NCBI RefSeq assembly: GCF_964212655.1
Contig: NZ_OZ156465.1
Span: forward strand, 2,976,001-3,040,000
DNA: 64,000 bases
Origin: Candidatus Thiodiazotropha sp. LNASS1
GTDB lineage: Bacteria; Pseudomonadota; Gammaproteobacteria; Chromatiales; Chromatiaceae
Reading direction: 5' to 3'
In this document: in pieces, positions 13,814 to 25,274 of the stretch
Position numbering within the stretch: position 1 is the first letter of the stretch
Layout: the number at the start of each line of letters is the position of its first letter
Notes under the pieces: model-generated
The model's database searches: none
What the model saw: only the letters and a program-made list of their open reading frames with translations
Told to the model about the DNA's origin: nothing
Position numbers and translations under genes: made by a program

Positions 13814-15745
13814 ATGAGCGAGAATGACCCAACCTATCGTCGCTATGAAGATGGCGATGATGAGCACTATGACTGGGATAGCGATGTGGTGATTCAAGGT
13901 GAGTCCTACATCTGCCCGACCTATATCCAGCGCACGCCCCCCTGTCAGAATGCCTGCCCGTCAGGTCACGATATCCGTGGCTGGTTGTCGATCGTGCGTG
14001 GTTTGGATAAACCACAAGGCGACAAGCCTTGGCAAGCACATGCCTTCGAGCGCATGACATTGGCAAATCCCTTTCCTGCAATCATGGGTCGCGTATGTCC
14101 GGCTCCCTGTCAGAAGGGTTGTAATCGTAACGGCCTTGATGGCTATGTCGGAATAAACTCCATTGAGCAGTACATTGGCGATTGGGCACGGGCGAACAAT
14201 CTCGCCTTTGCCAAACCTGAAACCGATAGCGGTAAGCGGGTCGCAATTATCGGGGGCGGGCCTGCCGGTCTGGCCGCAGCGCTGTTTCTGCGTCGCCTCG
14301 GTCATCGCTGTACCATCTTTGAGGAGCACAGCGCCCTTGGCGGCCAGATGGTATTCGGTATTCCCGGCTACCGCATACCCCGGGATGTGCTTGAACATGA
14401 GATCCAGCGTATCCTGGACGTGGGCGGTATCGATGCGAAACTGAACACGCGCGTGGGACGCGAGGTGAAGGTCGGGGTGTTGGAGAAAGCGTACGATGCC
14501 ATCTTCTGGAGTGTCGGCACTGTGGTCGGTAAGCCGCTGCGTGTCGAAGGCGGCGAGGCCCCGAACTGTGTGGATGGGATGACCTTTCTGAAGGCCTTCA
14601 ATGACGGTGCCCTGAAATACCTGGACGGACGTATCCTGGTAATCGGTGGTGGCGACACGGCGATGGATGTGGCCGCCGTGGCCAAGCGAATTGGCGAAGT
14701 GGCAAACCTCGAGGACTCGGAGCGCCCGGAAGCGGTGTTTGACGGTACCGGGAGCCAGAGTGACGACAAGACGGCCGAACGAACCGATTCCGCATGCTGG
14801 CTGGTCTATCGTCGTCCCATTGCCAAGGCCCCCTGCACCAAACACGAACTGGAGGCCTGCATTGCCGAGGGTGTGGAGATTCACGACGGTTTGGCGCCAC
14901 TTGAAGTGATGCTGGATGAGCAGGGCCATGCCTATGCCCTGAAAGTGCAACCGGTCGACTGGTCCTCAGGCAAGATGGAGGCCGATGGCGAGCCGTTCGA
15001 GATCGAGTGCAAACTGATTGTCGCCGCCACCGGCCAGACAGGTGACTACGAAGGGATCGATGGCATCGCCAATGACTGGAATCTGATCGATGCCGACCGG
15101 AGCATGCAGGTCAAAGGGAAAGCAGGAAATTTCGTGGGTGGGGATGCGGTAAACCCTCACCTGCTGACAACCGCTATCGGCCAGGCCTCGATTGCGGTAC
15201 AGAGCATCGATAATCACTTGCGTGGCCAAGCGGTCGATGAGCGCCCCAAAGTGGAAGGCCATCACTTTAATCTACTGCAGGAATTGTCTCAGAAAGATCT
15301 CTCACCGGAAGAGTACAATCATGGCCCGACCTGGGGTACCAACAGTGCCAAATGGTCTGTGCACAATTTTGAGAATCGTGCCGATGCGGATGTGGTCAAG
15401 AGTAATGCCATGTTCACGGGGCATTTTGCTTACGAGCCGTTGAACGCCCGGGATGAGATGGATGTGAATGCTTCCAACGTGCTGGGAAGCATGATCGAGC
15501 GCTTCACGGGCCTTTCCGAGGAGACAGCCGTCACTGAGGCAAAGCGCTGTATGAGCTGCGGTTTCTGCTTCGAATGCGACAACTGTGTCATCTACTGCCC
15601 GCAGGACGCCGTCTATCGCGTGAACAAGAATGAACGCGCCATGGGGCGCTATGTGGATACGGACTACGCCAAGTGTGTCGGCTGTCACATCTGCAAGGAG
15701 GTCTGCCCCACCGGCTACATCGAAATGGGTCTGGGTCAATACTAG
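13814..15745 (+). CDS. GltD/DsrL-like iron-sulfur flavoprotein (NAD(P)H oxidoreductase)
   Basis: This 643-residue protein has the GltD architecture extended by a ferredoxin-like tail. Near the amino end, PPCQNACPSGHDI and GRVCPAPCQKGC give Cys ligands for Fe-S clusters. GKRVAIIGGGPAGLAAA at about 140 binds FAD and GRILVIGGGDTAMDVAA at about 273 binds NAD(P). The end carries two [4Fe-4S] motifs, CMSCGFCFECDNC and CVGCHICKEVCP. DsrL of sulfur oxidisers and the AegA/GltD family share this layout. It is not next to dsr genes here, so I do not call it dsrL. Its place beside a sigma-54 regulator and a cyanate operon also fits electron transfer linked to ammonium assimilation. An unusually acidic amino terminus (DGDDEHYDWDSD) precedes the cluster domain. 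The gene is convergent with the regulator. Confidence 0.8.
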   Translation: MSENDPTYRRYEDGDDEHYDWDSDVVIQGESYICPTYIQRTPPCQNACPSGHDIRGWLSIVRGLDKPQGDKPWQAHAFERMTLANPFPAIMGRVCPAPCQKGCNRNGLDGYVGINSIEQYIGDWARANNLAFAKPETDSGKRVAIIGGGPAGLAAALFLRRLGHRCTIFEEHSALGGQMVFGIPGYRIPRDVLEHEIQRILDVGGIDAKLNTRVGREVKVGVLEKAYDAIFWSVGTVVGKPLRVEGGEAPNCVDGMTFLKAFNDGALKYLDGRILVIGGGDTAMDVAAVAKRIGEVANLEDSERPEAVFDGTGSQSDDKTAERTDSACWLVYRRPIAKAPCTKHELEACIAEGVEIHDGLAPLEVMLDEQGHAYALKVQPVDWSSGKMEADGEPFEIECKLIVAATGQTGDYEGIDGIANDWNLIDADRSMQVKGKAGNFVGGDAVNPHLLTTAIGQASIAVQSIDNHLRGQAVDERPKVEGHHFNLLQELSQKDLSPEEYNHGPTWGTNSAKWSVHNFENRADADVVKSNAMFTGHFAYEPLNARDEMDVNASNVLGSMIERFTGLSEETAVTEAKRCMSCGFCFECDNCVIYCPQDAVYRVNKNERAMGRYVDTDYAKCVGCHICKEVCPTGYIEMGLGQY

Positions 15746-15825: not shown

Positions 15826-17778
15826 TTACTGCTTTTTAGGCTTCTCGATGCCCAGACGCTTCATGCGTGATGCCAGCGTGGTAGGTTTCAGGCCCAGCAG
15901 GTCCGCCGCCCCATCTTTGCCGAATACCTTACCGCCGGCCTGATTCAGTGCTTGCATAATCATCAAACGGTCACGGGCCACACGCTCATTCTCTGTCATT
16001 AATACGTTGCCCACCGCCTCCGGTTCCTCGTCCGGCGTCAACGCCGTCTTGACGATGGTCTCAGGAACCGGCAGGTCCAGGTGGAGACGCCCTGTTTGGG
16101 TGACGATGACCGCCCGCTCGATGATGTTTTCCAGTTCGCGGACATTACCCGGCCAGCGATGGCTTTTAAGGCGTCTGACGTCACTTTGGCTGAGATGAAT
16201 ATCCCGCTTGTTGAGTTTACGGCATATGGTGTGCAGGAAATGGCTTGCCAACAAGGGAATATCCTCGGGACGTTCCCGCAGGGGAGCCAAGTGGATGGGG
16301 AACACCTGCAGGCGGAAATAGAGATCTTCGCGAAAGTTTTTTGCAGTCACCTCGGCTGCCAGGTCCTTATTGGTGGCGGTGATGATGCGCACGTCCACGC
16401 TACGGGTCTTCTCCTCGCCGATACGCTCGTACTGTCCCTCCTGCAACACCCGCAACAACTTGCCCTGTAACTCAAGAGGTATCTCGCCCACCTCGTCAAG
16501 AAACAGGGTGCCGCCGTCGGCCAGTTCGAACCGCCCTGCACGGTCCCGTGTGGCGCCGGTGAAGGCGCCCCGTATATGGCCGAAGAATTCGCTTTCGAAC
16601 AGATCGCGGGGTATGGCTGCGCAGTTGACCCGGATCAGAGGCCGATCGCTACGTTCGCTGCTGACATGTATGGCTCTGGCTATGAGTTCCTTGCCGGTGC
16701 CCGACTCGCCTGTGATCAGGGTGGTGGAATTTGTCGGTGCGACCAACTGAATCTTTTGGATAACCTGACGTATGGCTGAGCTGCTGCCGATTATCTCCCG
16801 GTAGTTGTGCTCGGTGCGGATTTCTTCCTGCAAATAGGCATTCTCTTCCTCCAGCCGCCGCTGCAGGGATTTGACCTGCTCGAGGGCGCTGCGCAGATTG
16901 TTTTCAGCCTCCTTGCGATCACTGATGTCGCGAAAGATGATCACCGCTCCGATGAGCATGCCATGTTCCACGATGGGTGTGCTGGTGTACTCCACGGGAA
17001 ATACGCTACCGTCCTTGCGCCAGAATACCTCATCGTCCACGTGGTGCACGGTACCATCATTGAAAGCGGCGTAGATAGGACAGTGTCTGACGGAGTAGTG
17101 GGAACCGTCAGGATGTCTGCAGTGCACCATCTGGTGCATATTCTTACCCACAAGCTCATCGGCATTGTAGCCAAGCAGGCGTTCGGCGGCTGGATTGATG
17201 AAGGTGGTGATACCATCCGCATTGACACCGTAGATACCGTCACCGGCTGCCTGCAGGAGTAGTTGGTTGCCCTGTTCGATCTCATGGAATAGCTGTTCGT
17301 ACTTGCGCCATTCCGCGAGGCCCCGGCGCACATAGTCGTTGGCGTCGGCTTGTTTACGCAGTCCCTCCACAACCTCTCGATCTTGCAGGGTGGCGCTCAG
17401 CAGTACCTGGTCATTGTGGGTCACAGATCGGGCGTTGCACTCTACCGGTATCACTCTGCCACTGCGGGTCCGGCAGCTGAGTTCATTGGTCCAACAAAAC
17501 CCTTGCACCATGACCGATTGGGTGAACACGACCAGTGCGCTCAACCCCCCGTTGAATAACCAGCTGGGTTTGCTTTGCAGCAGTGTTTCCATTGGAAATC
17601 CCAGTAGGTCCATAGCTGCTCGATTAGCATCGACCATACGATTCTCAACCGGATCGAATACAAGTGTTGCCGTGGGGTGCTGGTCAAAGAAGTTGTAAAA
17701 CATCGGCCATCCGGCATCTTTGGAATGCCTGGTATCCGGGAGGTTGTGGGTTTTAACCTCTGTATCCGATAGGTTCAT
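15826..17778 (-). CDS. Sigma-54-dependent enhancer-binding regulator with PAS domains
   Basis: The 650-residue protein has two amino-terminal PAS domains (about 25-135 and 170-290, the second with an HCRHPDG...RHC stretch), a short coiled coil, an AAA+ domain and a Fis-type helix-turn-helix end (KDGAADLLGLKPTTLASRMKR). The AAA+ domain has GESGTGKE (Walker A), GAFTGA (the sigma-54 contact loop) and GGTLFLDEVGE (Walker B). It should therefore activate RNA polymerase with sigma-54 from upstream sites. The PAS domains suggest a redox, gas or small-molecule signal. ATG 17778 is preferred, with GAGG 9 bases upstream. It is divergent from the cyanate operon, whose upstream region has a matching promoter and dyads, so it is the likely activator of that operon. 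It resembles NorR/FhlA-type regulators only in general layout. Confidence 0.93.
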   Translation of the reverse strand: MNLSDTEVKTHNLPDTRHSKDAGWPMFYNFFDQHPTATLVFDPVENRMVDANRAAMDLLGFPMETLLQSKPSWLFNGGLSALVVFTQSVMVQGFCWTNELSCRTRSGRVIPVECNARSVTHNDQVLLSATLQDREVVEGLRKQADANDYVRRGLAEWRKYEQLFHEIEQGNQLLLQAAGDGIYGVNADGITTFINPAAERLLGYNADELVGKNMHQMVHCRHPDGSHYSVRHCPIYAAFNDGTVHHVDDEVFWRKDGSVFPVEYTSTPIVEHGMLIGAVIIFRDISDRKEAENNLRSALEQVKSLQRRLEEENAYLQEEIRTEHNYREIIGSSSAIRQVIQKIQLVAPTNSTTLITGESGTGKELIARAIHVSSERSDRPLIRVNCAAIPRDLFESEFFGHIRGAFTGATRDRAGRFELADGGTLFLDEVGEIPLELQGKLLRVLQEGQYERIGEEKTRSVDVRIITATNKDLAAEVTAKNFREDLYFRLQVFPIHLAPLRERPEDIPLLASHFLHTICRKLNKRDIHLSQSDVRRLKSHRWPGNVRELENIIERAVIVTQTGRLHLDLPVPETIVKTALTPDEEPEAVGNVLMTENERVARDRLMIMQALNQAGGKVFGKDGAADLLGLKPTTLASRMKRLGIEKPKKQ

Positions 17779-17817
17779 ATGAACAGACCTCAATATTCAC
17801 TGAGATACTACAAAATC

Positions 17818-17860
17818 TCGTGTTTTCGATTACGTGTTTTCGTGATTTACGTATTTTCGT
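17818..17860. promoter_or_regulatory. Three dyads, probable upstream activator sites
   Basis: Three copies of a 12-bp dyad lie at 17818-17829 (TCGTGTTTTCGA), 17832-17843 (ACGTGTTTTCGT) and 17849-17860 (ACGTATTTTCGT). Each has 3-bp complementary arms around six bases, with centres 14 and 17 bp apart. They sit about 75-115 bp upstream of the -24 element of the sigma-54 promoter and just upstream of the divergent regulator start. This is the expected location of enhancer sites for a Fis-type activator. Confidence 0.6.
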
Positions 17861-17931
17861 AGTCCCGTAAGTCACCGCTATTTCTGATGTATTTCCCAAC
17901 TAAACAGCAGCTTACGTTTGAATTTTATAGT

Positions 17932-17947
17932 TGGCACGGTAGCTGCA
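17932..17947 (+). promoter_or_regulatory. Sigma-54 (-24/-12) promoter of the cyanate operon
   Basis: TGGCACGGTAGCTGCA fits the sigma-54 consensus TGGCACG-N4-TTGCA with one mismatch. The invariant GG (17933-17934) and GC (17945-17946) are separated by exactly 10 bp, the required spacing. Transcription would begin near 17958, giving an untranslated leader of about 225 bases before the first gene. Confidence 0.78.
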
Positions 17948-18008
17948 ATTCTCTTGTAAAGACGGGTGCGCTTCGGAATTGATTCAGCGCCGTCAGTCCG
18001 TCCAGGTA

Positions 18009-18025
18009 CGCACAAATTTTGTGCG
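18009..18025. promoter_or_regulatory. 17-bp palindrome in the cyanate-operon leader
   Basis: CGCACAAA and TTTGTGCG are perfect 8-bp arms around one base. The site is inside the predicted leader, roughly 50 bases after the sigma-54 start. A further short hairpin (GCGGGTT / AACCCGC) follows near 18083-18100. They could be a repressor operator or leader-RNA structures; the sequence does not say which. Confidence 0.4.
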
Positions 18026-18185
18026 GTTTTGGTAGAGGTTGTGCGTCCCTGCACCAGTATCGTCCCTGTTTCGCGTTCAACGGCGGGTTTGTGAACCCGC
18101 ACTTCGAAAAGGGCAGGAACCGTGCCATGCAGGTGGCTGACCGCATCGCCGACGTTTGAATCGAACAAGCTACAAGGGGTTTAAC

Positions 18186-19712
18186 ATGGCAAACAAAAGT
18201 CTCGGCAATCCGTTTGATGCGGATACCGATCTTCAGCACGGTCCTGCGTGCAACTGCCCCATCTGTGTTTTTCAGAAGGAGCAGATCCAGAGTAACTACG
18301 AATGCAGTGAAACCGAGTTGACCGAGCGATTGGAACGGGTGGTCTTTGAAGGCATCGCCACACCCGGGATGCATGAGTTGGCGGCTGCGGAACAGGCCGA
18401 GATCGCTGTCGACGAATCAGCGCAGACGGCAGTTGAGGATCCCAATCCTCTCGAGAGCTCCGAAGATGTCCTGGACCGGGTCGTCGAGAGTGCGGTGGTG
18501 CGTGGCATCTTCGGACACGACGATATGAGCCGCAGGGATTTTATGCGCCTGGTGGGTGGTGGCGCCTTCGCAGCCATGCTCGGCAGCATGCTGCCCATGG
18601 ATGAGGTCAAAGCGGCAATCAAGGACAATCTGGGCAAACCGGAAAAGTCGAAGCTGAAGGTCGGATTCGTGCCGATCACCTGCGCCACGCCTATCATCAT
18701 GGCTCATCCCATGGGCTTCTATGCCAAATACGGCCTGGATGTGGACGTCATCAAAACGGCTGGATGGGCGGTGGCCCGGGATAAATCCTTGGCCAAGGAG
18801 TATGACGCCAGCCACATGCTGACGCCGATGCCACTGGCCATCACCATGGGTTCCGGCTCCACGGCGGTACCATTCCGTATGCCTGCGGTAGAGAATATCA
18901 ACGGCCAGGCCATCGTGCTGCACGTCAAACACAAGGATAAACGCGATCCTAAGGATTGGAAGGGCTTCAAATTCGGTGTGCCGTTCGACTACTCCATGCA
19001 TAACTTCCTGTTGCGTTACTACGTGGCGGAACACGGCATCGATCCTGACAAGGATATACAGATCCGTGTGGTACCGCCGCCGGAAATGGTGGCTAACCTG
19101 CGGGCCGGCAATCTGGACGGTTACCTGTCGCCGGATCCATTCAACCAGCGGGCGGTATGGGAGAAGGTGGGATTCATTCACACCCTCACCAAGGATATCT
19201 GGCCGGGCCATCCGTGCTGCGCTTTTGCCTGCTCCGAGGAGTTCGCCACCACTCTGCCGAACACCTACGCGGCGTTGCTGAAGTCCATAGTGGATGCCAC
19301 CGCCTACTCCTCAAAGCATGAAAATCGCAAGGAGATATCTAAGGCCATCGCACCAAAGAACTATCTCAATCAGCCGGTGCCTGTTATCGAACAGGTGTTG
19401 ACCGGTAAATACGCAGATGGTTTGGGTAAGGTGCATAACGTCCCAGATCGAATCGATTTCGACCCCTTCCCATGGCACTCCATGGCGGTCTGGATCCTGA
19501 CCCAGATGAAGCGTTGGGGCTATGTGAAAGGGAATGTGGATTACAAGAAGATCGCGGAAGAGGTCTATCTGGCCTCCGATGCGGGACGCATGATGAAGGA
19601 GCTGGGTTATCCGGTACCGGATCATACCTATGAGTCCTACGAAATTATGGGTAAGGCGTTCGATCCGGCCAAACCCGACGCATATGTCCAGAGCTTCGCC
19701 ATTAAACGTTAG
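18186..19712 (+). CDS. Cyanate/nitrate-type ABC transporter substrate-binding protein (NrtA/CynA family), Tat signal
   Basis: The core from about residue 150 (LKVGFVPITCATPIIMAHPMG) is a NrtA/CmpA/CynA-family periplasmic binding protein, which captures small anions such as nitrate, bicarbonate or cyanate. Because cynS is in the same operon, cyanate is the likely ligand; the sequence alone does not prove this. A twin-arginine motif, SRRDFM, with a following hydrophobic stretch (GGGAFAAMLGSML) lies at about 115-135. It is preceded by an unusual 114-residue amino-terminal region containing HGPACNCPICVFQ near residue 20. ATG 18186 follows AAGGGG and is preferred over TTG 18156. The gene is the first of the operon. 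A stem-loop after it may favour high binding-protein levels. Confidence 0.85.
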   Translation: MANKSLGNPFDADTDLQHGPACNCPICVFQKEQIQSNYECSETELTERLERVVFEGIATPGMHELAAAEQAEIAVDESAQTAVEDPNPLESSEDVLDRVVESAVVRGIFGHDDMSRRDFMRLVGGGAFAAMLGSMLPMDEVKAAIKDNLGKPEKSKLKVGFVPITCATPIIMAHPMGFYAKYGLDVDVIKTAGWAVARDKSLAKEYDASHMLTPMPLAITMGSGSTAVPFRMPAVENINGQAIVLHVKHKDKRDPKDWKGFKFGVPFDYSMHNFLLRYYVAEHGIDPDKDIQIRVVPPPEMVANLRAGNLDGYLSPDPFNQRAVWEKVGFIHTLTKDIWPGHPCCAFACSEEFATTLPNTYAALLKSIVDATAYSSKHENRKEISKAIAPKNYLNQPVPVIEQVLTGKYADGLGKVHNVPDRIDFDPFPWHSMAVWILTQMKRWGYVKGNVDYKKIAEEVYLASDAGRMMKELGYPVPDHTYESYEIMGKAFDPAKPDAYVQSFAIKR

Positions 19713-19725
19713 ACCGTGAGTCGGC

Positions 19726-19755
19726 GGGGTCGGGGGGTCTCTTCCACCCGGCCCC
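19726..19755 (+). terminator. Intercistronic hairpin between binding-protein and permease genes
   Basis: GGGGTCGGG at 19726-19734 pairs with CCCGGCCCC at 19747-19755 (eight Watson-Crick pairs and one U-G). No T-run follows. It probably attenuates or stabilises the message so that the binding protein exceeds the membrane components, as in other ABC operons. Confidence 0.5.
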
Positions 19756-19783
19756 TTAACAAAACAGAGGGGAAACCGAAGTT

Positions 19784-20614
19784 ATGCTGCAGTCTCTAAA
19801 CATGCGAGCCACAGTGCTGGCCGTCACTTTCCTGGCCGTCATGCTCGGCCTCTGGGAAATGGCCAATCAAGCGCCGCAAGCGAAGAAGGCATTGACCGAA
19901 TATGAGATCCTCATGGGCGGTGCCGACCAGGAGGCGCGAGTACCGCCACCGTCCAAGGTCATTGGTCTGGCAGTGGATGAATTGTCCGATCCCTTCTACG
20001 ACAAGGGTCCCAATGACAAGGGTATCGGCATCCAGCTTGGCTACTCCATCTATCGGGTCCTGGCCGGTTACTTCATGGCGGCCGTTATCGCCATACCGGT
20101 CGGCTTCCTGATCGGCATGTCGCCGTTGATCCAAAAGGCATTGAATCCCTTCATTCAGGTGTTGCGTCCCATCTCACCGCTGGCCTGGATGCCGCTGGCC
20201 CTTTTTATCATCAAGGATTCGGAGGCCAGCTCTATCTTTGTTATTTTCATCTGTTCCATCTGGCCGATGTTGATCAACACGGCTTTCGGCGTGGCCAATG
20301 TGCGCAAGGACTGGCTGAATGTGGCCCGTACACATGAGCTGTCGCCCGTGCGTACCGCATTCACCGTGATCCTGCCGGCGGCGGCACCCACAATTCTCAC
20401 CGGCATGCGTATCTCCATCGGCATCGCCTGGTTGGTCATCGTCGCTGCCGAGATGCTGGTGGGTGGCACGGGGATCGGGTATTACGTGTGGAACGAGTGG
20501 AACAACCTCGATCTCACCAGCGTTATTTTCTCCATTCTGATGATCGGTATCGTAGGCATGCTGCTAGATATGGCGTTGTCCGGTGCCACCCGTCTGGTCA
20601 CCTATAAGGAATAA
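19784..20614 (+). CDS. ABC transporter permease, NrtB/CynB/SsuC family
   Basis: The 276-residue inner-membrane protein has about six hydrophobic segments. One of the first is MRATVLAVTFLAVMLGLWEMA; others lie near 85-110, 140-170, 205-230 and 240-265. The conserved ABC-permease (EAA) loop reads ARTHELSPVRTAFTVILPAA, about 90 residues from the end. It belongs to the nitrate/sulfonate/cyanate permease family and would form the channel for the preceding binding protein and the following ATPase. GAGGGG precedes ATG 19784. The stop codon is 7 bp before the ATPase start, consistent with one transcript. Confidence 0.9.
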   Translation: MLQSLNMRATVLAVTFLAVMLGLWEMANQAPQAKKALTEYEILMGGADQEARVPPPSKVIGLAVDELSDPFYDKGPNDKGIGIQLGYSIYRVLAGYFMAAVIAIPVGFLIGMSPLIQKALNPFIQVLRPISPLAWMPLALFIIKDSEASSIFVIFICSIWPMLINTAFGVANVRKDWLNVARTHELSPVRTAFTVILPAAAPTILTGMRISIGIAWLVIVAAEMLVGGTGIGYYVWNEWNNLDLTSVIFSILMIGIVGMLLDMALSGATRLVTYKE

Positions 20615-20621
20615 CGAACCT

Positions 20622-21578
20622 ATGACAACAAAACATTTTTTTGTCGAGGCGGAAAACCTTTCCAAACGATTCAAGACCAAGGATGGGGAGTTAACGGTAT
20701 TCGAGAATGCCAATTTCGGCATTCATAAGGGTGAGTTCGTCTGCATAATCGGCCACTCCGGGTGCGGTAAGTCCACCATCATGAATATCCTGGCCGGCCT
20801 TGACGGCGCCAGCGACGGCGTCCTGTTCATGGACAGCAAAGAGGTGGGAGGTCCGGCCTTGGAACGGGGTGTTGTATTCCAGAACTATAGCCTGCTGCCC
20901 TGGCTGAGCGCCCTCAAAAACGTCACATTCGGGGTACGCGCCCGCTGGCCCCAGTGGAGCCGCGAGCAGGTGCGGGAACATGCCTATAAATATCTGCAGA
21001 TGGTGGGCCTGGGGGATGGCGCTGAGGAACGCAAACCGTACGAACTCTCCGGTGGTATGCGCCAGCGGGTCTCCATCGCCCGCGCCTTTGCCATAGAGCC
21101 CAAACTGTTGCTGCTGGATGAGCCTTTTGGGGCGCTGGATGCGCTGACACGCGGCAATATCCAGGATGAGCTGCTGAAGATCTGGAACGAGACCCATCAA
21201 ACGGTGTTCATGATTACTCATGACGTAGACGAGGCGATCCTGCTGGCCGATCGCATATTGCTGATGACCAACGGTCCCTATGCGCGTATCGCCGAATCGG
21301 TGAAGGTGGCTATCCCGAGACCCCGGGACCGCACCTCGATCATCCACGACCCGGCTTACTACCCGATTCGCAATCATTTGGTGGATTTCCTGGTCATGCG
21401 ATCCAAGGAGCTTGCAGGTGCTCCTGTCGCTGAGCGGAAGACACAGGACGAGAGTGGTAAGCCGGATGGTTATATCAGGGTGTTTCCGGAAGAGGTCAAC
21501 CCGGCCCGGGGAATTTGTACCGTGCAGGACGCACAGACAGTGAATCGGTATGCAGACAAGGAGCGCGTAACAGTATGA
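20622..21578 (+). CDS. ABC transporter ATP-binding protein, NrtD/CynD family
   Basis: The 318-residue ATPase has Walker [10 protein letters not shown] (about residue 46), a Q-loop with FQNYSLLPW, the signature [10 protein letters not shown], Walker [13 protein letters not shown] and the switch His in MITHDVDEA. It would power uptake by the adjoining permease. About 60 residues follow the usual end of the ATPase domain; their role is unknown. ATG 20622 is preferred to an upstream in-frame ATG inside the permease gene because AAGGA lies just ahead. The stop codon overlaps the next start as ATGA, indicating translational coupling to the GTPase. Confidence 0.93.
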
Positions 21579-22966
21579 CAGCTTGTCTCCAGGAAACCTG
21601 TAACGAACACAGCAACGGCACAACGTCGGTTGAACGCGATGGGCGTGTGCCGGTAACGGTGTTGACCGGATTTCTCGGTTCAGGAAAGACTACCCTGTTG
21701 AACCGGATTCTCACGGAGCAACATGGAAAACGTATCGCGGTCATCGAGAACGAATACGGCGAGATCGGTATTGACCATGAGCTGGTGGTTCAGTCCGACG
21801 AAGAGATCTTCGAGATGAACAACGGTTGCATCTGCTGCACGGTGCGGGGTGACCTGATCCGCATCCTGGGCCGTCTGATGCGCCGCAAGCACAAGTTCGA
21901 CCACATCCTTATCGAGACCACCGGTATGGCTGACCCAGGTCCGGTGGCCCAGACCTTCTTCATGGACGAGGAGATGAAGGAGAAACTGCGCCTGGATGCC
22001 ATCGTCACCCTGGTGGATGCCAAGCATGTGGCGCAGCATCTGGACGAGTCTGACGAGTGCGAGGCGCAACTGGCTTTTGCCGATGTGGTCCTCGTTAATA
22101 AAACGGACCTGGTTAGTGCCGAGGCGTTGAGCACGCTCACTGAGGCCATACAGGGTCGTAACCGCCTGGCGCGAATCTATCAGACACAACATGGTGTTAT
22201 CGATCTGGATCGGATTATGGGTATCCGCGCCTTTGATCTGGAGGCCAAGCTCGAGGAGATCCCCTCTTTCCTGCAAGAGGAACTCCCCTTCGAGTGGTCC
22301 GGCATCTTCTCTTTGCAGGTGGGTGATTACGAATTGAGTTTCCAGCCGGGTCCCGATCCCGCCATCGATGTTGTGTTGGGGGCGATTGAAGATGGGCAAA
22401 GTTTCGAAGATTGGAAGCACAGCAGTATCCTGCTCTATTCCGATGACACGGCGCCACTGACCGAAACCGGTCTCACCCCGGCTAAAGCCCTCTATCGACT
22501 GCAGGTGGACTCAGTGTCAGGCAGTCGGTATCGGATTTGCATACCCAGGCCTGGTCGTTATGTGCTGTTCACCCAACATCTACCCCAAGAGTTCTCCATG
22601 GCTCTGTCTCTGAACGGTCAACCGGTCTTGGCCGAAATCCAACAGGAGCATGCGAGCCCCCACAGTCACGATGAGACAGTGGGTTCGGTGGGCCTGCACC
22701 TGGCGGGGGATCTGGATCAGGAAAGGTTCGAACGTTGGGTGGTCTCCCTGTTGCGACGCAAGGGTCCCGACATCTTTCGTTTCAAGGGAATCCTGGCCCT
22801 GGCGGGTAAGCCTGAGCGCTTCGTGTTCCAGGGGGTTCATATGTTGTTCGATGGAAAGTTCGGTCGGCCATGGAGCAGTGAAATGCGTCAAAGCCAGATG
22901 ATCTTCATCGGACGGCAGCTGGATCGCGCGGAGCTCGAAACGGGATTGGCCTCATGCAAGGCTTGA
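21575..22966 (+). CDS. COG0523 (CobW/HypB-like) GTPase, probable metallochaperone
   Basis: G3E-family GTPases of this group load or traffic metals such as Zn, Co or Fe, often for a neighbouring enzyme. Here the P-loop is [11 protein letters not shown] (about residue 32), followed by [10 protein letters not shown], the diagnostic CxCC metal site in NGCICCTV (about residue 88), TTGMADPGP and the base-recognition motif NKTD. The carboxy-terminal CobW_C domain ends near FDGKFGRPW, and HASPHSHDE offers possible His ligands. At 464 residues it is longer than the usual 320-400 because of extra sequence between GTPase and C domains. The start overlaps the ATPase stop (ATGA). Similar GTPases accompany nitrile hydratase genes. 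Cyanase needs no metal, so the client here is unclear. Confidence 0.9.
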
Positions 22967-22968
22967 GC

Positions 22969-23994
22969 ATGGCAACTCCTGTGGCGAATAGCGCTGAGCT
23001 GGCCTGGGCTACAGTCCTGGGTGAAAGCGTTGCCGATATCGCCTGGTTGCCCTCTGGTGAAAGGCTGTTTGCCGGTACCGCGGAGGGTGAACTGTGCGGT
23101 TACCAGGCAGACGCGGATTGCAGATTCCGCATCCAAGCCCACCAACGAGGTCTTACACGGATCTCTCCTTGTCCCCTGGGTAAGACAATCGCGACCACCG
23201 GTGAGGATGGTGGGGTGCTGCTTTGGTGGGCAGATACTGGTGAACGCATGCAGATCCTGGCGCGAGATCATGATTGGGCCGAGCATCTGGCCTGGTCTCC
23301 TGATGGCAAGACATTGGCCGGTGCGGCCGGTTCACGGCTCTATCTTCGCGATGCGGACGGCCGTACCAGCGAACTGGATGGGCATCCGGGGAATGTGGCG
23401 GCCATGGCCTGGGCGCCCAAGGGTCGCAAGTTGGCGACCGCCACCAACAAAGGGGTCTATCTATGGAATGTCGGCAGCCGGCAGCCGATACAGGTGTTGA
23501 GTTTTCCCGGCGCTGCTGTCTCCCTTGACTGGAGCCACAACGGTCGCGCCCTGGCGGTGGGGACCCAGGATGGTTTCCTCTACATCAGACTGCAGTTAGC
23601 CGGTTCCATACCGCGCCAACTCAGCATGAGTGGATATTCCGGCAAGGTCACTGGGCTTAGCTGGCACCCCAAACGTCTTCGTGTCGCCACCTGTGGCGGC
23701 AGTGATGTGGTGTTATGGGAACTGGATGCCACCAAGGGTAAACGACACGCGACCCTGTTACGGCGTCACTGTCATACCGTAACCATCCTCACTTACAGTC
23801 CTGACGGAAACCTGCTTGCCAGCGCGGATCGCCACGGCAGGCTCTGTATTTGGGATGAGGATGGCCTGGTGGCATTCGAGATGGAACTGGATACTGAGAT
23901 TACTTCAATGGCCTGGCATCCCGGCGCCCAGCGGTTGGCCGTGGGAAGCGTCGATGGTGTGCTGCGCCTGTTTATCCTGGGGGAGCAGCGATGA
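22969..23994 (+). CDS. WD40-repeat protein coupled to the COG0523 GTPase
   Basis: The 341-residue protein consists of about seven WD40-type repeats. Typical blade phrases are AWSPDGKTLAGA, AWAPKGRKLATA, SWHPKRLRVATCGG, YSPDGNLLASA and AWHPGAQRLAVG. It should fold as one beta-propeller and act as a protein-protein scaffold in the cytoplasm; no signal peptide is present. I chose ATG 22969, with AAGG 8 bases upstream. ATG 22954, which overlaps the GTPase stop, is an alternative. WD40 proteins recur next to COG0523 GTPases in cyanate and nitrile gene clusters, so it probably works with the GTPase. Its exact role is unknown to me. Confidence 0.88.
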   Translation: MATPVANSAELAWATVLGESVADIAWLPSGERLFAGTAEGELCGYQADADCRFRIQAHQRGLTRISPCPLGKTIATTGEDGGVLLWWADTGERMQILARDHDWAEHLAWSPDGKTLAGAAGSRLYLRDADGRTSELDGHPGNVAAMAWAPKGRKLATATNKGVYLWNVGSRQPIQVLSFPGAAVSLDWSHNGRALAVGTQDGFLYIRLQLAGSIPRQLSMSGYSGKVTGLSWHPKRLRVATCGGSDVVLWELDATKGKRHATLLRRHCHTVTILTYSPDGNLLASADRHGRLCIWDEDGLVAFEMELDTEITSMAWHPGAQRLAVGSVDGVLRLFILGEQR

Positions 23995-24032
23995 GCCCCC
24001 TGCCTATTTACTGCTAATCGAGAGAGGAAACC

Positions 24033-24473
24033 ATGAACAAGATCGAGATGACGGAAGCCATCATGACCGCCAAGAGCAAGTCAGGGCTTGGTTGGGAGGC
24101 CATAGCGGGGAAGGTTGGATTGGACCCCGTATTCGTGACGTCCGCCTGCCTGGGTATGAACTCGTTGAAATCGGAATACGCCGACAAGCTTTGTGAGGCA
24201 CTGCAATTGCCGGGTGAGGTATCCACCGCCTTACAGGCCTTTCCCAACAAGAAATGGGATCAGATCGTGCCGACCGACCCGGTTATCTATCGTTGGTACG
24301 AAATCGTCGGTGTTTACGGCGAGACCATCAAGGAGATCATCCATGAGAAGTTCGGAGACGGCATCATGTCCGCCATCGATTTCTCCATGAGCATCGATAA
24401 GGAGGAGAACCCCGCGGGTGACCGGGTTTTGGTCGCCATGAGCGGTAAATTTCTGCCTTACAAGAGCTGGTAA
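24033..24473 (+). CDS. cynS: Cyanase (cyanate hydratase)
   Basis: Cyanase converts cyanate and bicarbonate to carbamate and CO2; carbamate then falls apart to ammonia and CO2. The 146-residue protein has the helical amino-terminal domain and the family-specific core YRWYEIVGVYGETIKEI. The catalytic triad is present: Arg87, Glu90 and Ser113 correspond to E. coli Arg96, Glu99 and Ser122 with a constant offset of nine. The active form is a decamer. A good ribosome-binding site (GAGAGGAAA) precedes ATG 24033, 38 bp after the WD40 gene. It identifies the upstream ABC transporter as a likely cyanate importer and gives the operon its metabolic meaning: a source of nitrogen, and of CO2 for an autotroph. 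Confidence 0.97.
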   Translation: MNKIEMTEAIMTAKSKSGLGWEAIAGKVGLDPVFVTSACLGMNSLKSEYADKLCEALQLPGEVSTALQAFPNKKWDQIVPTDPVIYRWYEIVGVYGETIKEIIHEKFGDGIMSAIDFSMSIDKEENPAGDRVLVAMSGKFLPYKSW

Positions 24474-24575
24474 TGCGATTTTTACCGTGTGTGGAATACC
24501 TGCACCAGCTGATTTGCAGTGTCGCCGAGCCTCGGTTGGGCGACCCTTGAGAGACATGACTAAGAGGTAATAGAT

Positions 24576-25274
24576 ATGCACATCGAACCAGGCGTCGTTC
24601 TCGGCGCAAAAATGGCACTTGGCTATGTGACCGCCGCAGGGGCATTCCTGTATGCGGCAAAGCGTTCCCTGAAAACGATTGAAAAGGACGGGCTCGTTGC
24701 GCTCGCTATCCGGACGTTCATGGCGACGGTGCTGGTGTTCGGCTTTTTCGAGCTTCTGCCGCACTATCCGGTAGGCGTCTCCGAAGTGCACTTCATCCTT
24801 GGTTCGACCCTGTTTCTGATGTTCGGCGCCGCCCCCGCTGCAATTGGTTTGGCCATGGCCCTGATGTTGCAGGGGGTCCTGTTTGCTCCAGCCGACCTGC
24901 CGCAATACGGCATGAATGTCACCACCCTGTTGGTGCCGCTTTTCATGATCGATGTGCTGGCACGCCGTATCATTCCAGCGGAGACCGCATATATGGACAT
25001 TGAATATATGCAGGCGTTCAAGCTATCCATGGTCTATCAAGCGGGTGTCGTGGCTTGGGTGGGATTCTGGGCGGTCTATGGTCAAGGGTTTGGGGCAGAG
25101 AATATAGCGCAGATTGCATCATTCAGCGCCGCGTACATATTGGTTGTGTTGTTTGAGCCGTTGGTTGATCTGGCCGTGCTTGCGGCGGCCAAGTCGATGT
25201 ATCAATTCAAGGACAGCATGCTTTTTCAGTCGCGCCTGTATAAGGCTGCGTGCACGGCGAGCGCAGGATCTTAG
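24576..25274 (+). CDS. CbiM/NikM-like ECF-type membrane protein
   Basis: The 232-residue integral membrane protein starts MHIEPG. In CbiM/NikM metal-specificity components, His2 next to the amino end helps bind Co or Ni, so this start is functionally informative. Six or seven hydrophobic helices follow, and QGVLFAPADLPQYGMNV resembles the CbiM LLxGHGGITTLGANV segment. Such proteins normally work with CbiQ/CbiO partners, which are not present here. AAGAGGTAATAG lies just upstream of the ATG. It follows cynS by about 100 bp on the same strand and probably closes the operon, where it could supply a metal for the COG0523 GTPase or its client. Substrate and partners are unknown. Confidence 0.7.
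   Translation: MHIEPGVVLGAKMALGYVTAAGAFLYAAKRSLKTIEKDGLVALAIRTFMATVLVFGFFELLPHYPVGVSEVHFILGSTLFLMFGAAPAAIGLAMALMLQGVLFAPADLPQYGMNVTTLLVPLFMIDVLARRIIPAETAYMDIEYMQAFKLSMVYQAGVVAWVGFWAVYGQGFGAENIAQIASFSAAYILVVLFEPLVDLAVLAAAKSMYQFKDSMLFQSRLYKAACTASAGS

Follow-up and report, generated by a model that had tools for sequence, protein, structure and literature searches.

Organization of the cyn Operon

An apparent cyanate (cyn) operon holding three genes beyond its transporter and cyanase lies in a 64,000-nucleotide stretch of the Candidatus Thiodiazotropha sp. LNASS1 genome (contig NZ_OZ156465.1, positions 2,976,001 to 3,040,000; hereafter the window, in whose numbering positions are given). An open reading frame check combined with Pfam and NCBIfam profiles confirmed seven open plus-strand genes at 18186–25274 (Table 1), encoding a NrtA/CynA-like binding protein, a permease, an ATPase, a COG0523 GTPase, a WD40 protein, the cyanase CynS, and a CbiM-like permease, the very set that an initial annotation had proposed from the sequence alone. 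The intergenic gaps (71, 7, −4, −13, 38, and 102 nt in gene order) fit a single predicted transcript, and overlaps of the kind seen between the GTPase and WD40 genes suggest co-transcription. As in operons of the cynFABDS type, the NrtA-like binding protein, permease, ATPase, and cynS share one same-strand run, here with two genes separating cynS from the ATPase.

The cyanase displays its catalytic triad exactly as first read (R87, E90, and S113) and is the only PF02560 match in the genome, a single contig of 4.75 Mb. Cyanase is not known to need a metal. The nearest solved structures to the binding protein are the NrtC C-terminal domain, NrtA, and CmpA, and we infer its specificity for cyanate from synteny with cynS. 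Its leader of ~110 residues contains HGPACNCPIC (residues 18–27; 18237–18266), an H-x3-C-x-C-x2-C pattern, and a twin-arginine translocation (Tat)-like motif, SRRDFM (residues 115–120), follows this Cys-rich leader.

Table 1. Genes and predicted control sites of the cyn locus, in window coordinates, with the profile score or sequence match behind each assignment
Feature	Position	Strand	Evidence
NrtA/CynA-like binding protein	18186–19712	+	PF13379 (NMT1_2) 300 bits
Transporter permease, NtrB/CynB type	19784–20614	+	TIGR01183 226.7 bits, cut-off 209.05 passed
Transporter ATPase, NtrCD/CynD type	20622–21578	+	TIGR01184 304.2 bits, cut-off 291.8 passed
Long-form COG0523 (CobW-like) GTPase	21575–22966	+	PF02492 207.8 bits; PF07683 (CobW_C) 83.7 bits
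WD40 beta-propeller protein	22954–23994	+	PF00400 128.8 bits; 13-nt overlap with GTPase gene
Cyanase CynS	24033–24473	+	NF002773 and TIGR00673 (160.5 bits, cut-off 113.3) passed
Solitary CbiM-like permease	24576–25274	+	PF01891 58 bits, cut-off 23.1
Divergent PAS/sigma-54 activator, CynF-like, HTH_8/Fis C-terminus	15826–17779	−	Sigma54_activat 240.9 bits; PAS_9; HTH_8 22.6 bits (cut-off 22)
Putative sigma-54 −24/−12 site TGGCACGGTAGCTGC	17932–17946	+	1 mismatch to TGGCACN5TTGC; 254 nt upstream of binding-protein start
Second sigma-54-like site TGGCACGGTTCCTGC	18113–18127	−	Inside operon leader, faces TGGCACGGTAGCTGC, points at regulator gene
Three 14-nt direct repeats	17816–17860	.	Two are TACG-N6-CGT sites (17831–17860), possible activator binding sites

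Recurrence of the Metal-Handling Genes among Relatives

Loci were tabulated wherever the transporter binding protein scored at least 300 bits, which gave 36 rows and, with duplicates (L076 and L134) and truncated rows (L074, L092, and L138) removed, 31 operons. Eight of these contain the GTPase–WD40 pair (the window, L024, L027, L037, L042, L050, L114, and L115) and are called module-bearing below. A metal permease is present in seven of the eight and in none of the 23 operons without the pair (Fisher 3e-6, kinship ignored and L037 being a near-copy of the window; the 0/23 figure covers CbiM and HupE/UreJ only, and several of the 23 loci end 4–5 kb after the transporter start). L063 was counted among the 23 although its cynS sits 3 kb upstream of the transporter. 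L032, whose contig begins inside the ATPase gene and carries the ATPase end, GTPase, WD40, cynS, and CbiM, stands outside the 8 + 23 count.

The permease slot is occupied by CbiM in four operons, those of clam symbionts, and by the unrelated HupE/UreJ in three (L042, L050, and L115), CbiM and HupE/UreJ belonging to different Pfam families; the HupE/UreJ assignment was made by Pfam for L042 and L076/L115 and by similarity plus an HPxxGxDH motif for L050. Gene order is altered in L115, with cynS ahead of GTPase-WD40-HupE. In L114 (genome G247), the transporter is followed by the GTPase and WD40 genes with no adjacent cynS, CbiM, or HupE match, and the genome's cynS lies on another contig. Given this variation in cynS position and permease family, the stable core is the transporter with the GTPase–WD40 pair. 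The nearest locus (L037), from a gammaproteobacterium symbiotic with the clam Ctena orbiculata, encodes a cyanase 99% identical to that of the window, while L024, L027, and L032, also from Ctena orbiculata symbionts, have the same seven-gene set or its sequenced part and cyanases of 83–86% identity. The nine cyn-linked GTPases group together as a single clade (support 100/96), whose members are linked to a cyn transporter in nine of nine cases (L032 by the ATPase end only). Four lineages of the GTPase tree keep the module, and the GTPases of the three lineages other than the clam symbionts are 60–66% identical to that of the window.

The variant is rare. In 369 sampled Gammaproteobacteria, 54 cyanase matches were found in 51 genomes, and the GTPase–WD40 pair stands beside cynS at two of the 54 (some contigs span 4–9 kb, and a few cases could be missed). 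The surroundings of every match entered this count, those of G184 and of the window's genome by way of L115 and the window and those of the other 52 through their extracted regions. Across 398 phylum-wide genomes, full-length GTPase matches occurred only in the genome of the window and in G673. In the congener G350, neither cyanase nor, at 1e-60, the GTPase gave a match; thiocyanate hydrolase and the CbiM paralogue are present in it. The initial annotation had proposed an added metal-handling module and had named rare co-occurrence with cynS as a finding that would refute it. Seen from cynS, co-occurrence is indeed rare, though seen from the GTPase the link is close. The genes are not a common addition, but they recur together in gammaproteobacterial relatives with a single GTPase clade, and on this comparative evidence we regard them as a genuine conserved addition to the known kind of sigma-54 cyn operon.

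Rarity would also suit mere cargo, that is, unrelated nitrogen- or metal-stress genes that spread once and are co-transcribed with no functional tie to cyanate. A single GTPase clade makes a single origin possible, and the CynS proteins of module operons are dispersed across a tree of low resolution. Cargo is nevertheless decidedly unlikely in our estimate: the module is kept in four GTPase-tree lineages, in altered order in L115 and with two permease families in the same role, and the permease is coupled to the GTPase (7/8 versus 0/23).

Persistence of the pair beside the transporter where neither cynS nor a permease is adjacent (L114) is what a client inside the operon would predict, the GTPase and WD40 protein metallating either the Tat-type binding protein at its Cys leader before export or a metal site of the transporter. 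Tat substrates typically fold before export. One clade unites seven of the eight module binding proteins, and the leader HGPxCxCPICVF is common to all module rows. Yet the CxCxxC leader occurs in 30 of the 36 binding-protein rows whether the module is present or not, including 21 of the 27 without it; the binding protein of L115 (G184), a module operon, falls elsewhere in the tree than this clade; and a Cys leader ahead of the signal sequence would probably not reach the periplasm. We consider a client of this kind very improbable.

Predicted Control by Sigma-54

The window pairs a predicted sigma-54 activator with a putative sigma-54 promoter, as in the cynFABDS type. TGGCACN5TTGC is the sigma-54 consensus, and 1% of 200 mononucleotide shuffles gave a match as good as TGGCACGGTAGCTGC (one mismatch). 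Sites with at most one mismatch precede 24 of the 36 related binding-protein rows, and a divergent activator homologue of at least 100 bits accompanies 16 of them, the window included. For the window's activator, the ATG at 17779 was picked by eye over a mechanical TTG start at 17793. Taken together, TGGCACGGTAGCTGC and the adjoining divergent PAS/sigma-54 activator lend the proposed sigma-54 control support at the sequence level.

A sigma-54-like site on the opposite strand, TGGCACGGTTCCTGC in the window, was present in seven of the eight module-bearing leaders (not in L115) and in none of four others, the four having been drawn from the 23 non-module leaders. With such opposed putative sites, the leaders of operon and regulator would overlap and be complementary to each other. 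The tandem TACG-N6-CGT pattern occurs once in the window and in none of 100 shuffles; in the 4.75-Mb genome it likewise occurs once, against four occurrences of the pattern written backwards as a control. Matches in G370, G374, and G124 fall at the cyn operon, those of G184 on three other contigs, and the single match of G247 away from its transporter operon. No known RNA family was found in the window at gathering score, and a generic scan returned 2 sigma-70 promoter sites where shuffles gave 5.1, and 8 terminator sites where they gave 6.5. As a separate observation, an ABC transporter and a GAF-sigma54 activator flank the cyn regulator in G373 (L237 1015–7870), and a set like it in L236 adjoins OsmC and acyl-CoA-dehydrogenase-like genes.

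The GTPase–WD40 Pair and the Case for Zinc

The window GTPase joins the cobW and CobW_C domains of COG0523 and carries CXCC (GCICC) and HxHD motifs. It belongs to the long forms, which measure 449–474 residues versus 319–378 in the remaining tree rows, and none of the nine module genomes has a CobW_C (PF07683) match besides this GTPase, a count that covers COG0523 proteins with this domain. Specialized profiles were not reached: the aerobic-B12 CobW equivalog (TIGR02475, 218.1 bits, cut-off 332.1), the YjiA-like PRK11537 (NF008578, 247.6 versus 361), and the zinc metallochaperone ZigA (NF038288, 188.8 versus 600). No cobN-like gene is among the seven operon genes. In the GTPase tree, which lacks reference proteins for the named COG0523 subfamilies, the cyn-linked clade lies near long forms from zinc clusters (L116 and L117) and from FecCD-type uptake clusters (L191 and L231); the next group consists of four cyanobacterial GTPases, two of them from nitrile-hydratase operons and two from clusters containing genes for the transport of zinc or other metals. 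In both FecCD-type clusters (L231 7986–11710 and L191 3028–8351), the long-form GTPase gene and a WD40-like gene stand beside the chelate-uptake genes, an arrangement that suggests a metallophore-linked branch of the long-form group.

Carbonic anhydrase is a zinc enzyme inhibited by cyanate, and cyanase, which uses up bicarbonate, would depend on it. The pair might accordingly be a ZNG1-like zinc chaperone recruited for carbonic anhydrase or for cyanate-damaged zinc sites, with the permease importing either cobalt in place of zinc or some other divalent metal. Several gene contexts point this way and against cobalt as the metal of the pair. The long-form GTPase of L117 is accompanied by WD40, HisI, and further CobW genes, and that of L116 by ZnuA, ABC-3, Fur, HisI, and ZrgA genes (no WD40 was found there); shorter GTPases stand with annotated WD40 proteins in the plasmid zinc clusters L193 and L229. 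A plasmid WD40 search gave generic repeats and went unused save for one Paraburkholderia row (H18/H37). In Haas 2009, COG0523 subfamily 5 is tied to WD40, znuABC, and Zur sites (PMC2770081), and a 2024 Cupriavidus paper ties CobW2/CobW3 to zinc as well as cobalt. On the other side, no Zur or ZnuABC is among the nine genes scanned (the seven, the regulator, and the gene at 13814), carbonic anhydrase is not one of the seven, the control site is of the sigma-54 type, and the permeases belong to Ni/Co families and have close relatives that neighbor cobalt enzymes; L195 and L230 show that WD40 pairs are not confined to zinc clusters. We judge the zinc explanation rather unlikely.

The CbiM Permease and Evidence for Cobalt

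With the CbiM proteins of CbiMNQO transporters, the window permease shares the family profile and an N-terminal Met-His, together with a conserved E-[VL]-H in an alignment of 20 rows. The Met-His of CbiM is a metal ligand. The score of the window permease falls short of the NCBIfam CbiM equivalog cut-offs (NF004905, 30.2 bits versus 173). Relatives of ~61% identity (L122 and L123) are found in B12 operons, flanked on one side by CbiA and on the other by a precorrin methylase and then CbiX. The genome's second CbiM, 68% identical to that of the window, is separated by ~6 kb from NHase-type subunits and belongs to a cluster (L120 8971–19731; 3.38–3.39 Mb of the genome) that comprises a methyltransferase, an iron-sulfur CCG protein, a LysR regulator, thiocyanate-hydrolase-type subunits, and an ABC transporter. 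The alpha-type subunit of this cluster bears CTLCSC, which we take to be the cobalt-type motif. Gene context favors cobalt for the permease and does not settle the metal of the GTPase; for the module as a whole the metal is probably cobalt. In a review, CbiMNQO is assigned to cobalt and nickel and one HupE to cobalt, with many HupE/UreJ proteins in nickel contexts (PMC7689651).

Thiocyanate Hydrolase and the Question of the Client

NHase-type subunits are absent from the seven operon genes, and the sole NHase_alpha match of the genome lies at 3.388 Mb, ~390 kb from the cyn operon. Thiocyanate hydrolase is described as a cobalt enzyme (PMC6504805). Elsewhere, cynS can sit within thiocyanate-hydrolase clusters, in the order CbiM-cynS-methyltransferase-...-hydrolase in L040 and HupE-cynS-methyltransferase-hydrolase in L154, which is the same permease swap as among the cyn operons. 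The GTPase–WD40 pair was absent from the thiocyanate-hydrolase clusters examined (L040, L055/L166, L120, L121, L144 in part, L154, L158 in part, and L235).

NHase_alpha of the thiocyanate-hydrolase type was detected in six of the nine module genomes, five of the six being close kin, versus two of the 23 genomes with a cyn transporter and no module (G311 and G124). This survey took in 40 genomes, with G290 and G394 representing the same place and G393, G394, and G290, preselected for the hydrolase, standing outside both fractions. Conversely, cynS is present in 7 of 10 thiocyanate-hydrolase-type genomes and in 44 of 359 others, a post hoc split in which the thiocyanate-hydrolase type (~230–241 bits) and the classical type (>260 bits) were separated after the scores had been seen; it accompanies full-length NHase_alpha in 7 of 20 genomes (p = 0.012) and the classical type in 0 of 10. 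The correlation of module with thiocyanate hydrolase is suggestive and cannot be the whole answer; three of the nine module genomes lack an NHase_alpha match. The initial annotation had offered a client elsewhere as one of two options. That option fits this genome better, with a hydrolase and a second CbiM ~390 kb away, and it finds no such enzyme in those three genomes, which leaves some probability to the other option, a metal step within cyanate use. From these gene distributions, the client is probably elsewhere in the cell.

Other candidates were set aside. Large proteins beside sbp2/cynS in L236, L237, and L057, considered as thiocyanate dehydrogenases, proved to be sigma-54 activators (of GAF type in L236 and L237); OsmC and acyl-CoA-dehydrogenase-like genes are found at L236 and L057. 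Candidates for the same enzyme in L120 and L040 have no solved relative, and sbp2 was dropped as a thiocyanate marker, as it also occurs in genomes without NHase_alpha.

Proposed Working of the Operon

We tentatively read the locus as a sigma-54 operon of the cynFABDS kind with a built-in cobalt-type metal-provision module whose client is likely thiocyanate hydrolase, a reading to which we give somewhat less than an even chance. When nitrogen is short and cyanate present, the divergent activator would switch on the whole transcript, as the control sites and gene order suggest. By family, CynABD would bring in cyanate and CynS would degrade it. CbiM, or HupE/UreJ in other lineages, would import Co(II), and the COG0523 GTPase, with the WD40 protein as adaptor, would load the metal at CXCC and hand it over to the client apo-enzyme. 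The most likely client here would be the cobalt-type thiocyanate hydrolase ~390 kb away; module genomes without it would need a different one. If the client is thiocyanate hydrolase, one operon would ready the cell for the cyanate/thiocyanate pair.

Several observations weigh against this proposal. The window CbiM appears to stand alone, a search of the genome for the partner CbiQ (PF02361) having given no match; its relatives L124 (57%) and L125 (56%) have no cobalt gene among the neighbors scanned; and the identity of the metal rests on gene context. The pair also stands apart from cynS and any permease in L114. NHase_alpha went undetected in module genomes G184, G247, and G373, of which G373 is a metagenome-assembled genome and the other two have a listed completeness of 98%. 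Taken over all NHase_alpha genomes, cynS is present in 7 of 25 (p = 0.06). The genome's thiocyanate-hydrolase cluster comes with a CbiM and a LysR gene of its own, and shared control by the cyn activator found no support, as the genome holds no second tandem site (exact pattern only, with a control that was not clean).

A broader proposal is that cyanate or thiocyanate use has an undescribed metal-dependent step or cobalt cost, for which the GTPase clade, the WD40 protein, and CbiM or HupE/UreJ supply cobalt on a cyanate signal, with another client where the hydrolase is missing; we hold this to be unlikely. To our knowledge, the clients of many COG0523 GTPases have not been established. Here a clade is tied to a trait that is simple and can be selected for (the ability to grow on cyanate or thiocyanate), and it provides the sole CobW_C match of each of the nine genomes, which makes the client question testable. 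If the cobalt-provision proposal is true, cobalt supply would be linked to the use of small cyano compounds in sulfur-oxidizing bacteria, clam symbionts included.

Comparison with Known Systems

The locus is a cynFABDS variant with a proposed metal-provision module; the base operon and the GTPase–WD40 pairing were already known. The closest characterized relative is cynFABDS of Pseudomonas pseudoalcaligenes CECT5344, studied with mutants, induced by cyanate, and repressed by ammonium (PMC6627978). Both loci show a divergent sigma-54 regulator (CynF), a putative sigma-54 promoter before cynA, and cynABD with cynS in one unit. The available part of that report names no COG0523 protein, WD40 protein, or metal permease and places hemE and a transposase after cynS, whereas the window has three extra operon genes and a second, opposite sigma-54-like site in its leader. 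The GTPase–WD40 pairing itself had been reported in 2009 (PMC2770081). A search limited to open-license PMC papers found no description of a cyn operon with this metal module.

By neighbor and motif, not by tree, the window GTPase resembles COG0523 subfamily 5 as presented in the 2009 paper: a CobW/CobW_C GTPase beside WD40, with CXCC (PMC2770081). Subfamily 5 appears there in zinc-limitation contexts, whereas the window offers a cyanate operon, a sigma-54 site, a Ni/Co permease, and a long-form GTPase. Among WD40-like proteins, AztD is a zinc chaperone of the periplasm, a propeller that binds zinc at conserved sites. Plasmids of Picosynechococcus (pAQ4, L192 5995–10039) and Pseudanabaena (pPg_02, L225 5986–9568) likewise set a related GTPase and HupE/UreJ around a cyano-compound enzyme, with COG0523 GTPase, nitrile hydratase, and HupE/UreJ genes in one apparent operon. 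They differ in that the metalloenzyme is inside the operon and no WD40 is annotated, the window's operon enzyme being the cyanase. The nitrile hydratase alpha subunit of L192 bears CTLCSC (one alpha subunit was read), unlike the iron-type nitrile hydratase to which the 2009 paper ties COG0523 activators (PMC2770081).

The window permease resembles those of CbiMNQO/ECF cobalt transporters in its CbiM family, Met-His N-terminus, and relatives in B12 operons, and differs from them in being solitary and below the NCBIfam CbiM cut-offs. Thiocyanate-hydrolase clusters, in which cynS can sit with CbiM or HupE (L040 and L154), differ in containing the hydrolase, often with a LysR gene, and those examined do so without GTPase–WD40. 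In lucinid clam symbionts, according to the available part of a paper that names no metal genes there, cyanate hydratase and thiocyanate hydrolase are both moderately transcribed (PMC11171427).

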